Assembly (NCBI GenBank): GCA_018646195.1
Contig: JABGVH010000148.1
Span: forward strand, 1 to 64,000
DNA: 64,000 bases
From: Halobacteriovoraceae bacterium
GTDB lineage: Bacteria; Bdellovibrionota; Bacteriovoracia; Bacteriovoracales; Bacteriovoracaceae
Direction: 5' to 3'
Below the pieces are notes generated by a model. It had not been told where the DNA came from. It made no database searches and worked only from the letters and a program-made list of their open reading frames with translations. Shown here in pieces: positions 12,864 through 18,594 of this stretch. Positions within the stretch are counted from its first letter, which is position 1. Every line of letters starts with the position of its first letter. Made by a program: the position numbers and the translations under genes.

Positions 12864-13637
12864 ATGAAATCCATCACCCTCGCATTGGGACTTTTGACCC
12901 TTCTTTTAAGTAATGCTTTCGCTGAACAAGCAGCGACTTCTAAAGCAGAATTCTGCGCCAATAATGTTAGTGGCGATACCATAAAATCAATGCTTTTAAG
13001 CTCTGAAAATCGCCTGACTTTCACCAATCGCGGTGGACTGGCCAATGGCGGTGTTTGCTGGTGGCATTCTCGCTTCACTAGAAAAGCACTTTACCTGGCG
13101 ATTTACCGACCTGACCTTCCAAAACCTAGCAATAAAGAAGCCGCTAAAATCGTCAAGGCGATTCGTATGGGTAAGGGTGTTGTTGAGGTCCCAGGATTTA
13201 AAAACCTTTCAGATTTTTCTCGAACTCATAGAAAGCAGATTCAAGATCGCTTAGAAAAATGGCAAATTGGAGATGGCTTTCTTCGTGGTCAATGGGCGGT
13301 TGGTCTTTGGGGTGGAAGTGATACTACCGCTGCTAAGATGCAAAAAAGAATGGATGACCTTTTCCAAGATGTAATGGTTAAAAAAGACATCACTTATCAA
13401 GTCCTTCAACTTCCTGGAATTGTCGCTCACGCCTGGTTAGTCGTTAATATGGAAAAGACTAGCAATGGTTATAAAATTCAAGTTATCGACTCAAATTACA
13501 GCAGCCCAAGAACTCATACTTATAAGCGCGGAGATACTCATTTAACTCTAGGTTATTTTGGAAAAATGGTAGGCCGTACAGGTAAGCGTTCCGAACTTAA
13601 AAAGATGAAAAAGATTATTAAAAAATACTGTAAGTAA
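12864..13637 (+). CDS. Secreted protein with possible papain-like Cys-His-Asp triad
   Basis: 257 residues with a clear Sec signal peptide (MKSITLALGLLTLLLSNAFA). A strong AGGAGAG ribosome site at 12854-12860 fixes the ATG. I do not recognise the family by name. The mature protein has Cys65 in GGVCWWHSRFTRKA at the start of a helix, His189 in IVAHAWLVV, and Asp209/Asn211 in VIDSNY. This order and spacing (Cys at a helix start; His and Asp/Asn in later strands) is what papain-like or transglutaminase-like cysteine hydrolases show. Catalytic activity is inference. A basic Lys-rich tail ends the protein. It is followed by an LpxR-like outer-membrane gene 56 nt later on the same strand, so it probably acts in the periplasm or outside the cell. 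Confidence 0.7.
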   Translation: MKSITLALGLLTLLLSNAFAEQAATSKAEFCANNVSGDTIKSMLLSSENRLTFTNRGGLANGGVCWWHSRFTRKALYLAIYRPDLPKPSNKEAAKIVKAIRMGKGVVEVPGFKNLSDFSRTHRKQIQDRLEKWQIGDGFLRGQWAVGLWGGSDTTAAKMQKRMDDLFQDVMVKKDITYQVLQLPGIVAHAWLVVNMEKTSNGYKIQVIDSNYSSPRTHTYKRGDTHLTLGYFGKMVGRTGKRSELKKMKKIIKKYCK

Positions 13638-13693: not shown

Positions 13694-15007
13694 GTGAGAG
13701 TTTATACAGCCCTGCTATTTCTAGTTTTCCTTCCCAATGTAATTTTGGCCGATCACCATCTAGAAGAACCGATCGTTCTAAAATCAGATTTTAAAGAAAT
13801 AATGAAGCCCGCCAGTGGGGAAGAACTTATCGATACCGCACTTAAATTAGAGCGCGAGAGTGGCCGCCAAATGGCCCAGAAAAAAGACCTGCCTTGCCCT
13901 AAAACATCCGACCAGCCGCAAGAAAAACAAAAAAAAGAAATTGAAAAAAAGAAAAGCGTACCTGAGAAAAAATCCTTTATCTGCCTCTGTGAAGTGGGAA
14001 GTGAAGAGGGCAAAAAGAAGGCCCAGAAAGAATACGAAAATAGTTATGCCCACTTTCTAGAGGATAAGGGTTTTCTGGAGCGTTATATTGGTCTCAACCG
14101 CCAAACAGATTTCACACTACGAACTGGCAATGACAATTGGGGGCATGGTCTCGGGCGGGTAATAGGTCTTGAAGAATATGATGGAGACGATCGCCAGCGA
14201 ACTTTTTCGGCCGGAGTTGAATACCAACTCAAGGGTGACGAGGGAGAGTTTAGTATTTCACTGGACACCACCGGCTGGGGTAATTTTGCGCCCCTTGAAA
14301 CCAAGCTGAAGGGCGGCGGTACCAGCTATGAATACCAGGATGAAGACGGCGCTTACTACCAAGACTTTTTAGAAAAAGACGTACTCGACGTCAATTACTT
14401 AGGCTATCTCGATGGCAACGGCAAAGGCAGGACTTTGCGTTTAGGTGTCCGAGTAGAAGATTTCAAAGACCATGGGCCGGGAGCTCAGGGAATTCAAGAT
14501 GCCTTTCATGGAATAAATGAAGATTATATTCAGTACAATTACAATGATTGGTTAAAAGATCATAATGGTGATGAATTCCAAGACCGCATCGTCGGGTACT
14601 TAGGCTTTGGAAAGCGTTGGGAAGCCGACCTTGGCAAGTGGAAGTGTTCTGCTACTGCCGAAGTTTTAGCGGGTGTTGATTTCCTAGATCCCTCTTATAT
14701 CGAAGGGGGAGGACGCTTCAGTGCTGAGCTCAACTCAGGTACCGCAGGGGGAAGGCAAGCTGATAATCCTTGGTTTGCAGTGGCGCTATACGATCAGGCG
14801 ATGGCCAATACCGTCGATGACGGAATTGATAATTCTCTTGGGATAATGATGTCGACCTCTTTTCGCGCAGGCTCAGCAATTATTAAGCCCTTCATGGGAG
14901 TCGAGTACCACGATGCCACTGAAGACCGCTTCTTTAACGCAGGTGGAGAAAATGAAATCTACCATACCGTCGGGGTGATGGTTTCCTTTGGCGGAACTCG
15001 TCACTAA
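13694..15007 (+). CDS. Probable outer-membrane beta-barrel, LpxR-like lipid A 3'-O-deacylase (DUF2219 type)
   Basis: 437 residues from a GTG start with a signal peptide (MRVYTALLFLVFLPNVILA). Residues ~60-125 form an unusual Lys/Glu-rich, Cys-containing linker. After that the sequence follows the LpxR layout: GNDNWGHGLGR (Asn146, Asp147), RTFSAGVEYQL (Thr170), then HGPGAQGIQDAFHGI (His272), a Trp-containing loop, and alternating beta-strand segments to a C-terminal VGVMVSFGG strand. In Salmonella LpxR the Asn-Asp pair and the His in the equivalent helix lie at the active site that removes the 3'-acyloxyacyl chain of lipid A. Family assignment is from recalled motifs, so treat it as probable. 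The long N-terminal linker is not part of LpxR proteins I know. Confidence 0.6.
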   Translation: MRVYTALLFLVFLPNVILADHHLEEPIVLKSDFKEIMKPASGEELIDTALKLERESGRQMAQKKDLPCPKTSDQPQEKQKKEIEKKKSVPEKKSFICLCEVGSEEGKKKAQKEYENSYAHFLEDKGFLERYIGLNRQTDFTLRTGNDNWGHGLGRVIGLEEYDGDDRQRTFSAGVEYQLKGDEGEFSISLDTTGWGNFAPLETKLKGGGTSYEYQDEDGAYYQDFLEKDVLDVNYLGYLDGNGKGRTLRLGVRVEDFKDHGPGAQGIQDAFHGINEDYIQYNYNDWLKDHNGDEFQDRIVGYLGFGKRWEADLGKWKCSATAEVLAGVDFLDPSYIEGGGRFSAELNSGTAGGRQADNPWFAVALYDQAMANTVDDGIDNSLGIMMSTSFRAGSAIIKPFMGVEYHDATEDRFFNAGGENEIYHTVGVMVSFGGTRH

Positions 15008-15063: not shown

Positions 15064-15801
15064 ATGAAAAAACTAGTGACCTTATTTGTATTACTAACAT
15101 CCGCACTAGCGCTCTCTCAAATTGACCGCTACGACCGTAAAGACCTGAATGATCCCGATAAGAAGAAACCTGTTGGAACTTTTAGTCGCAGTTCTCATAA
15201 AGTTAAAATGAGCTCTGATAAAGAACTTCAAAAAAGTCATCGCAACTTCAACAAAATGGATTTTAAAATCGAAGCCGGACACAGAGACTTTGATCGCAAT
15301 CTAACAAATGCAGGCCATTTAAATATGCTGGCCGGTGGATTGGCCTTTGGTGTTTCGGCGCTCGACCTCTCTGCAAAAATGCGCAAAGATTTTTATTTTT
15401 TAGGAACCGCTTCACTCTTAGTGGGAGGTCTGCATTATTACTCCACCTTGAATCCCTATCAGGGAGTTGATGGAAAGTTGGCCCAGAAAGATTATTACCG
15501 TGCCCTGGCGGCAAAGGCCCGTCAAGCACGACTCTATAGCGGCTCGGCCCAACTGGCACTAGGAGCCGGTTACCTGGCCCTCTACAGCAAGTATCATAAC
15601 GACGGCGCCAAAGATGCCCACTCGGCTTCTCTGGTCAGTTTAATTATTGGTGCTGGAAAAGTTGGTTCTGGATTATTTCAATTATTTAGCAAAAGTCCAA
15701 TTGAGCGATCACTTCGCCAGCATAAAAGAGGTCCAAAGTTTGGCTGGGACGTCGGAGTTAAAGGCGATTCTCCAATGTTAGTATTTGGTGGTTCGTTTTA
15801 A
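15064..15801 (+). CDS. Secreted or membrane-associated protein of unknown function
   Basis: 245 residues. A signal peptide (MKKLVTLFVLLTSALALS) is preceded by an AGGAG site (CAGGAGTTAACATG). I do not recognise the family. A charged N-terminal region is followed by several Gly/Ala/Leu-rich hydrophobic stretches (around residues 80-120 and 160-200, such as LNMLAGGLAFGVSALDL), which could be helical hairpins in a membrane. The protein ends in a Gly-rich segment finishing with Phe. It is third in a rightward run after the Cys-His-Asp protein and the LpxR-like barrel, 56 nt behind the latter, and is closed by a bidirectional terminator. Confidence 0.65.
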   Translation: MKKLVTLFVLLTSALALSQIDRYDRKDLNDPDKKKPVGTFSRSSHKVKMSSDKELQKSHRNFNKMDFKIEAGHRDFDRNLTNAGHLNMLAGGLAFGVSALDLSAKMRKDFYFLGTASLLVGGLHYYSTLNPYQGVDGKLAQKDYYRALAAKARQARLYSGSAQLALGAGYLALYSKYHNDGAKDAHSASLVSLIIGAGKVGSGLFQLFSKSPIERSLRQHKRGPKFGWDVGVKGDSPMLVFGGSF

Positions 15802-16489: not shown

Positions 16490-17542
16490 TTAATAAGAAG
16501 ATTGAAGGCCAAAGAAAAAATTGTACTGACCTCCGGTAGGGTAGGCCAGTTGATCACGATCTTGATCCCAAAATCCCTCTCTCGAGGCCTCAGTTTTCGA
16601 AGTCAGCTTATTGCCGAGATAGACTAGAACGTCGATGCCTACAATCAGATCAGTTTTTGGAAGTAGGTTTCTGTACTGGTAAGAGCTAGTGAATATCGGT
16701 GTTGCATTGAGAGAAGAAAATTTTCTCTCGTCAAAATTTTCAAATTCATCCTGGATAGAGATGAAAGAACGCAGATAGTTGAGGGTAATTCCCCCTCCCA
16801 TATTAAAGCGATGGCGCTCTCTTCTAAAAAAATCATAAGTCATTATCGGACCTATTCTAAATTGAAAGCGATCATCACTTGATCGGCCACCATCCTCAAA
16901 AAAGAAGTCGGCATCTGAACCCAAAATCATAGCAGTTAGTCCAAAATGGGTACGGTCATACTTATCAAATTTAACCTTTTGAGTGTAGGTCATTTTTAGA
17001 CCACCGACTGCCGAGTAGCTCTCTCTTTCAACTCGCTTGAGATAGGGATAGCTGGTCTTTAAATCTGGCCCGACTAAGATCGCCAGCGAGGCGCGATGAA
17101 CTTTGGCAGGAAAAAGTGGGTAGCCCTCTGGTAGGGGCTCTTGTAAACGGTAATCCATATAATCGTGACCTTTCATATTTATGGATTTGCCAAACTCTCT
17201 TGTGTCCTTAGTAATAAGTTTTACAAATATTTTCTGGATATAAGCTGTTTGGCCGCGCTTATCGAGAGTTCGATAATAACCTTCAGCATCGTCAAAGAAC
17301 TCGAGAGGGAATTCTTTATTTGAAAAACTCGAGGTTTCATAATCCATTTGATAGGGGGAACCACGAAAGCTTTCACCATGAACAATTATTCTTTGGCCTT
17401 TGCGGACCATTTGAACTGGTGGTGCTTCTAGCTCAGGGGAACCTTGTAGGGCCGCCTCTAAAACGATGACTATTCCATGACTGGCGCTCGCCAGAGGAAG
17501 AAAAAATAAAGTTAAAAATAAAAGCGCAATTATTTTTCTCAT
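16490..17542 (-). CDS. Exported protein, probable outer-membrane beta-barrel (second of a pair)
   Basis: 350 residues with a signal peptide (MRKIIALLFLTLFFLPLASA). The N-terminal ~130 residues hold short beta-rich segments with GQRIIVHGESF and QTAYIQKIFVKL, which could be an SH3-like or carboxypeptidase-regulatory-like fold. From about residue 145, alternating polar/hydrophobic strands (such as FRIGPIMTYDFF and FNMGGGITLNYL) end in YNFFFGLQSSY, whose terminal aromatic is typical of Bam-assembled barrels. The start overlaps the stop of the upstream gene by 4 nt (ATGA), so the two are translationally coupled. Function is unknown. Confidence 0.65.
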   Translation of the reverse strand: MRKIIALLFLTLFFLPLASASHGIVIVLEAALQGSPELEAPPVQMVRKGQRIIVHGESFRGSPYQMDYETSSFSNKEFPLEFFDDAEGYYRTLDKRGQTAYIQKIFVKLITKDTREFGKSINMKGHDYMDYRLQEPLPEGYPLFPAKVHRASLAILVGPDLKTSYPYLKRVERESYSAVGGLKMTYTQKVKFDKYDRTHFGLTAMILGSDADFFFEDGGRSSDDRFQFRIGPIMTYDFFRRERHRFNMGGGITLNYLRSFISIQDEFENFDERKFSSLNATPIFTSSYQYRNLLPKTDLIVGIDVLVYLGNKLTSKTEASREGFWDQDRDQLAYPTGGQYNFFFGLQSSY

Positions 17543-18594
17543 AATTCCCAGTCTAAACGATAACCAATTGATAGAGCGTAACTCTCTATCAAACCGCGAT
17601 CTGAATCGACAACTACGTCGGTGTCGGTACTTTTAACATGGGGATTTAGGCGGCGGTAACTAGCACCTAAGAACCACTTGCCCCATTTGGCCTGTTTAAT
17701 TCTTTGCATTTCAAGTTGAAAGGAGTTGCTGCTTAAAGCGTAATAAGAAGTACTGTCTCGCAGATCAAAAAAGATCGATTGCTGAAAGCCGGCTTGCAGA
17801 TTCCATTCTACTTTTCTCTTGTGATAGAAGGCCCACTTTACCATCGGTCCAAAGAAAAGATTATTCCAAGTGTAGGTGCCGGTAATATCCTCTAATACCG
17901 CGGTTTGATAGCTAAGAGACAGTCCAAACTGTACTGGCATGATGCTGCGGTAATAAGTTGTTAAATCTAATCTATTGCCGGCCGCCGTCTTGCTTTCAGT
18001 CCCTAGTAGCTCTCTAACAAATTGCGCTTTAATATTTTCGCCGTGAAGAGAAATTTCGCTTTCAAATTTAAGCGCCGGATCGTTGCTATGAAAACTGTCG
18101 GGTTCATCATAAGTGATCAAAGGATCGATGGGCGGAGTTAAGTCTAAGTCCCCTTGGATCGAGATCAAATTGCTAGTATGGGTTTTGTATTTGAATTTAC
18201 CTGAAGAGTCGTAGATATACGCGGTCTGGCTGCCTTGAACTTTTTCCCGCGCCAAGACGAAGAATTGGCGCCCGACTTTAATTTGTTTACCAGTATCAAG
18301 TTCTTCTAGAGTTGAGTATTTCTTGAGCAAGGATTTATAGGGAACTGGAGACCAGGGTTTTTCCCGCGGCTTAAAACGCAAGCGCCGGTATTTCTGCTTT
18401 CTCTTTTCATCTTCTTCACCAATTAGATTGTCGACGGACTTAAAATCGATGGCCCTAAGGTCTGCTTTAAGTTCACTCTCAAGTTGCAAGTCGAGTTCGG
18501 GGCTCTGCTCAATATCTTCAAGGGTTGGAACGTCCTGCGCCATGGCGATTGCACTAAAAAGTAAAAGGGGCGCTAAGAGCCGGCCCAATGCCAT
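17539..18594 (-). CDS. Exported protein, probable outer-membrane beta-barrel (first of a pair)
   Basis: 351 residues with a signal peptide (MALGRLLAPLLLFSAIAMA). A Glu/Asp-rich segment (residues ~20-65) is followed by a basic stretch (EEDEKRKQKYRRLRFKPREK), then a small beta-rich region around 95-135 (GKQIKVGRQFFVLA, TAYIYDSSGKF). From about residue 170 there are amphipathic strands (PVQFGLSLSYQTAVL, WNLQAGFQQSIFF, YALSIGYRLDWEL) consistent with a barrel. It shares its layout (signal, small beta domain, C-terminal barrel) with the coupled downstream gene, although clear sequence identity is not visible by eye. It may form a complex with that product; this is inference. Confidence 0.65.
   Translation of the reverse strand: MALGRLLAPLLLFSAIAMAQDVPTLEDIEQSPELDLQLESELKADLRAIDFKSVDNLIGEEDEKRKQKYRRLRFKPREKPWSPVPYKSLLKKYSTLEELDTGKQIKVGRQFFVLAREKVQGSQTAYIYDSSGKFKYKTHTSNLISIQGDLDLTPPIDPLITYDEPDSFHSNDPALKFESEISLHGENIKAQFVRELLGTESKTAAGNRLDLTTYYRSIMPVQFGLSLSYQTAVLEDITGTYTWNNLFFGPMVKWAFYHKRKVEWNLQAGFQQSIFFDLRDSTSYYALSSNSFQLEMQRIKQAKWGKWFLGASYRRLNPHVKSTDTDVVVDSDRGLIESYALSIGYRLDWEL

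Follow-up and report, generated by a model that had tools for sequence, protein, structure and literature searches.

The open reading frame at positions 13694–15007 (+) of the window, by which is meant the whole 64,000-nucleotide stretch of DNA that was analyzed, on balance encodes an outer-membrane, 12-strand barrel with the character of a Ca2+-dependent, LpxR-like lipid deacylase, whose substrate would most simply be the cell's own Kdo-lipid A. The best reading of the protein is as a member of a divergent deacylase family lying outside the LpxR family as currently modeled, with lipid A as its presumptive substrate. The source genome comprises 3.8 Mb in 254 contigs and is 94% complete. In agreement with the first-pass annotation of this DNA, the reading frame is genuine, specifying 437 residues from a GTG start and supported by the list of open reading frames, its homologs, their alignment, and AlphaFold2 modeling. 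The product opens with a signal-peptide-like segment (residues 1–19; 13694–13750 (+)), recognized by eye from the sequence together with its cleavage site, and continues with an N-terminal region delimited by alignment and AlphaFold2 (residues 20–133; 13751–14092 (+)) and the 12-strand barrel, delimited by AlphaFold2 and by fold matches (residues 135–433; 14096–14992 (+)).

The residues expected of an LpxR-type active site, Asn146, Asp147, Thr170, and His272, were located where they had been proposed, in the LpxR order, and are invariant among those homologs of the window's family (family A) that cover them. The Asn146–Asp147 pair (14129–14134 (+)) closes strand 1 and is the counterpart of LpxR N9–D10 by alignment, AlphaFold2, and VIA-align. 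Asp166-x3-Thr170 (14189–14203 (+)) begins strand 2, with Thr170 as the counterpart of LpxR T34 by alignment, AlphaFold2, and the signature described below. A helix spanning residues 264–274 (14483–14515 (+)), set in the loop that connects strand 5 to strand 6, carries Gln268 and His272, counterparts by alignment and AlphaFold2 of LpxR Q118 and H122. Alignment A2, composed of 16 rows in which the relatives are 19–32% identical to the window protein, has invariant columns at N146, D147, N148, G152, D166, R167, T170, Q268, H272, and Y281, and because these columns are invariant across all 16 rows, the motif cannot have been picked out of a single sequence by accident. Mutation of the corresponding positions in Yersinia LpxR (N9A, D10A, S34A, and H122A) abolished activity (PMC3486919).

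Conservation extends across the wider set of relatives. Within family A, defined as the unique hits above 170 bits (29 rows, one of them, L081, representing a C-terminal half), N, D, and T are present in 28/28 covering rows and Q and H in 29/29, while each of the five residues is found in 7/7 of the loci chosen to represent subfamily B (L086–L092). Eight outlying members retain T, Q, and H throughout (8/8) and N and D in 7/8 each, and the canonical LpxR set (set C; 37 rows) has N, D, and H in 37/37 and Q in 35/37. A separate alignment, A3, drew on 16 of 30 canonical loci that had been retrieved. The spacing of Q-x3-H and of D-x3-[T/S] in family A equals that in canonical LpxR, and Q268-x3-H272 of the window protein corresponds to Q118-x3-H122 of LpxR 3fid as counted on the alignment. 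The combined signature ND..D-x3-[T/S]..Q-x3-H was matched by 28/29 family A rows, 7/7 of subfamily B, 6/8 outlying members, and 35/37 canonical LpxR rows, as compared to a background of 51/1800 shuffles and of 1/215 open reading frames, the latter figure being descriptive since the pattern was picked after both families had been seen. The exceptions in the residue pattern among outlying members are L116, which has N-N, and L118, which has no N. These counts leave out L084, where N-D, T, and H can be recognized by eye at a different spacing, together with gene fragments in L021, L008, and L070 and the motif-less tandem copies described below, with their duplicates; L119 carries the signature but is absent from the list retrieved with the AB profile and enters no count. 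The first-pass annotation had further compared GPGAQG (residue 261 onward) and AFHGI (residue 270 onward) with motifs of LpxR. Both segments are present, but GPGAQG is not conserved in relatives, and the conserved element around the His in family A is Q-x3-H (Q268 and H272) rather than GPGAQG. The NGVH motif attributed to LpxR was itself absent from the columns conserved at 90% or more across the 37 canonical rows, in which the His stands in a Q-x3-H context.

Structure prediction by AlphaFold2 from 16 sequences yielded a 12-strand barrel for the window protein (mean pLDDT 78.5, the low-scoring part being mostly the N-terminal region), and a barrel-only model of a divergent relative from Bacteriovorax sp. 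BSW11_IV showed the same order of elements (mean pLDDT 88.4). In both models, strand 1 finishes with N-D, T stands at the beginning of strand 2, and the His is located at a short helix that lies between strand 5 and strand 6; in the second model it is His159, the residue directly after the helix (150–158). The L3 helix of LpxR spans residues 110–126 and carries H122, as given in PMC6260217; the LpxR layout, a 12-strand barrel with the His at an α-helix in extracellular loop L3, is predicted in both family models. In the comparison with Salmonella LpxR that had been suggested as a check, Foldseek ranked 3fid (LpxR) first both for the window model (E = 2.8e-8; next match 3.8e-6, ∼140-fold) and for the BSW11_IV relative (E = 2.4e-8; next match 5.0e-7, ∼20-fold). 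VIA-align superposed 3fid on the window model with Z 17.1 (243 residues aligned, rmsd 3.8) and on the relative with Z 18.8 (232 aligned, rmsd 3.2). Given the starting points of these alignments (119 to 1 and 17 to 1, respectively), both N-D pairs fall on N9–D10 if strand 1 is ungapped. Equivalents of the catalytic N9, D10, T/S34, and H122 are kept, those of T and H being matched by order, spacing, and topology. N146/D147, T170, and H272 all map to the extracellular end of the modeled barrel, a topology from which their clustering at one site may be inferred. Two findings had been named as speaking against an LpxR-like enzyme, of which one, no match to DUF2219/PF09982, was observed and the other, a scatter of the Asn, Asp, and His over the barrel, was not, as judged from this predicted placement at the extracellular end.

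Sequence comparison places the family outside LpxR as modeled by Pfam. PF09982 (LpxR; curated cut-off 26 bits) matched neither the window protein, nor any of the 16/16 aligned members, nor any other protein of the genome, and Pfam and NCBIfam searches of the window protein returned no match; the outlying members likewise showed no PF09982 and no Pfam match above any cut-off. As controls, divergent canonical LpxR proteins from the same taxonomic family did match PF09982, at 140 bits (L094) and 124.6 bits (L096). Searches of PDB sequences with the window family by phmmer and by profile retrieved no relative, and the canonical LpxR profile found 3fid at 1.7e-20. Comparison of the window family with LpxR by hhalign gave a probability of 0.7% at first, then 4–9% and 11% with enriched profiles, and the first run as well as global and trimmed runs produced no significant match. 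Profile enrichment increased the score, while the probability stayed too low to be of use. The hhalign scores of 26–29 exceeded a decoy maximum of 22.9, with 0/120 decoys per profile and 0/200 reaching the score, an excess that may in part be generic barrel signal since the decoys were shuffled or reversed columns and included no unrelated barrel families. At low threshold, the hhalign alignment extended over 243–259 columns and paired N-D, T, and Q-x3-H with their LpxR equivalents. Given hhalign probabilities of 4–11% and no PF09982 match, the window protein was not filed as a PF09982 member; it and LpxR probably share ancestry. The designation LpxR-like is supported by what it has in common with LpxR (PF09982; 3fid from Salmonella; a lipid A 3′-O-deacylase), namely the predicted barrel and topology, the invariant catalytic residues at the N-D, T, and Q-x3-H positions, and the first rank in Foldseek. 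In contrast to LpxR, the window's family has no DUF2219/PF09982 match, does not have, among the conserved columns of A2, those that read T-P, D-x-P-Y-A, and G-W in LpxR (34–37/37 canonical rows), and possesses an extra, Cys-containing N-terminal region ahead of the barrel.

In simulations of LpxR, D10 holds Ca2+ and H122 activates water, as described in PMC6260217. By the corresponding scheme, D147, together with N146 and T170, would bind Ca2+, the ion would polarize the acyl ester, and water would be activated by H272, which the models place at the helix of extracellular loop 3, such that an O-linked acyl chain would be cut from an outer-leaflet lipid, most simply the Kdo-lipid A of the cell itself. 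The genome encodes LpxC, LpxB, a Kdo-transferase-type protein, and a DUF374/LpxJ-type protein, while a PF03279 (LpxL/LpxM-type) acyltransferase was not found in it. Enzymes of the DUF374/LpxJ type in other bacteria add the 3′ secondary acyl chain (PMC6148475), and by analogy the product of such an enzyme would be part of the group that LpxR removes. The absence of PF03279 was considered as an argument against a lipid A substrate and rejected, given the DUF374/LpxJ-type protein.

A protein with an LpxR-type active site might instead act on another ester substrate, such as phospholipids, another envelope lipid, or the lipid A of prey, a possibility that deserves weight though it is clearly less probable than action on the cell's own lipid A. 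The mechanism of LpxR has been described as similar to that of phospholipase A2 (PMC6260217). Canonical LpxR occurs in 37/290 genomes sampled across the phylum, six of which also carry the window's family, and 4/5 of the same-family genomes with canonical LpxR carry both; since both are present in 6/290 genomes, the two are not simple replacements for one another, and their coexistence suggests divided roles. Moreover, as PF03279 was detected in just 6/129 same-family genomes (five of the six in open frames of 550–692 residues), the lipid A of the lineage may be unusual. However, the DUF374/LpxJ-type and Kdo-transferase-type proteins in the genome make a standard lipid A substrate plausible, and nothing in the present analysis points to any particular alternative.

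Other 12-strand barrels of the outer membrane provide a further point of comparison. The VIA-align Z of 3fid was tied with or below those of the small porins NanC and KdgM (2wjr and 4fqe; Z 16.8–20.2), and the fold alone therefore does not single out LpxR; 3fid had the most aligned residues in the top group. These porins share strand number and barrel geometry with the window family but were aligned over 159–188 residues, as compared to 232–243 for LpxR, and ranked far lower in Foldseek or outside the top 50 with both models. To our knowledge, the LpxR-type catalytic set does not occur in NanC/KdgM porins. A noncatalytic 12-strand channel or structural barrel, in which N-D, T, and Q-x3-H serve another role, would agree with these porin Z values, with the lack of a match to any enzyme family model, and with the motif-less tandem copies in two relatives, but is quite improbable, as the invariant residues are the very ones lethal to LpxR activity when mutated and occupy the same topological places, LpxR is the clear leader in Foldseek, and porins have no reason to keep catalytic residues. 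Outer-membrane phospholipase A (OMPLA) is a 12-strand barrel lipase that uses Ca2+ and has a His-Ser-Asn active site, in contrast to the N-D/T/H of the window family, and its VIA-align Z values (1qd6; 11.2 and 12.5) were lower than those of LpxR.

Relatives of the putative deacylase were found in 10/97 genomes by single-sequence search, the source genome included, and profile search gave matches in 38/129 genomes of the same taxonomic family (Bacteriovoracaceae). Among the 290 genomes of the phylum sample, the family was present in 37, nine of them outside Bacteriovoracaceae. The named relatives in the GTDB collection (15 loci) belong almost entirely to Bacteriovoracaceae, including Halobacteriovorax and Bacteriovorax, with one from Bdellovibrionaceae and one from Oligoflexia. 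In two relatives, the LpxR-like gene is immediately followed by a second copy (L024 6857–8095 and L077 2801–4027); both copies retain the N-terminal region, resemble the LpxR-like gene in their C-terminal part, lack the ND/T/Q-x3-H signature, and, to go by their sequences, are possibly an inactive partner. Three further LpxR-like barrels are fused to an N-terminal region of ∼200 residues (L090 636–2300 (−), L091 696–2336 (−), and L115 603–2327 (−)), which resembles the N termini of SurA-type chaperones by eye and has no Pfam match above cut-off.

The N-terminal region of the window protein contains a P-[S/T]-x-E-x-L helix, Cys68, a Lys/Glu-rich stretch, and Cys97-x-Cys99. It had been regarded as a novel linker with four Cys preceding the barrel, a description that proved mostly wrong. 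The region is variable and common to relatives, which share the P-[S/T]-x-E-x-L helix followed by a Cys, and the Lys/Glu-rich part differs among them in length and composition (46% Lys plus Glu over residues 69–96 of the window protein). The four Cys are at positions 68, 97, 99, and 318, so that the barrel is preceded by three of them and contains the other, Cys318 (14645–14647 (+)), at the predicted periplasmic start of strand 7, as a candidate disulfide partner of Cys97. Cys318 accompanies Cys97 in 17/17 of the Cys97-containing rows, out of 44 rows in total, and L117 was aligned as having Cys318 only. On a quickly built tree that covered 42 rows and omitted 2 partial ones, Cys97 and Cys318 underwent 2 and 3 changes, and an independent-pairs test, with 1–2 pairs, was not significant. 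From the topology, the N-terminal region would lie on the periplasmic side, and a Cys97–Cys318 disulfide tethering it to the barrel is plausible, since the two residues co-occur and both would be periplasmic. A more far-reaching proposal, unlikely in its entirety, is that the family constitutes a separate, phylum-wide branch of LpxR-type deacylases with at least two subfamilies, having a disulfide-tethered periplasmic region that possibly controls activity, and specialized either for the unusual lipid A that predatory bacteria possess or for attack on the prey envelope.

The kind of enzyme proposed here, LpxR-type, is already known, and no description of the window's branch was found in the literature searched on LpxR and lipid A deacylases in Bdellovibrio and on lipid A and the outer membrane in Bacteriovorax, a search with most subscription journals outside its coverage. 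If the deacylase assignment is right, LpxR-type lipid deacylation extends well beyond the family recognized by Pfam, and lipid A remodeling becomes testable in Bacteriovoracaceae, in which the profile matches of 38/129 sampled genomes go unnamed by family annotation. The lipid A of Bdellovibrio is neutral and unusual, according to work cited in PMC12228718. The signature and alignments offer a direct route to finding such enzymes.

The LpxR-like gene is flanked on the same strand by genes at 12864–13637 and 15064–15801, each separated from it by a 56-bp gap. Homologs of either flanking gene were absent from the flanks covered (up to ∼6 kb) of 15 relatives, where the only matches other than to the family itself were rpoD/dnaG in L023. 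A conserved operon was therefore rejected, as neither neighbor recurs within these flanks, and scans for promoters and terminators around the gene gave results near chance. The upstream gene (12864–13637 (+)) encodes a secreted-looking protein of 257 residues with no Pfam match above cut-off, in which the segments GVCWWH, HAWLVV, and DSNY resemble a Cys-His-Asp hydrolase by eye; homologs were present in 18/59 sampled genomes, the source genome included, with at most 61% identity outside it. Further downstream, two adjacent open reading frames of ∼350 residues each (16490–17542 (−) and 17539–18594 (−)) overlap at their ends and have no Pfam match; the product of the former has a secreted-type start and appears barrel-like near its C terminus by eye.
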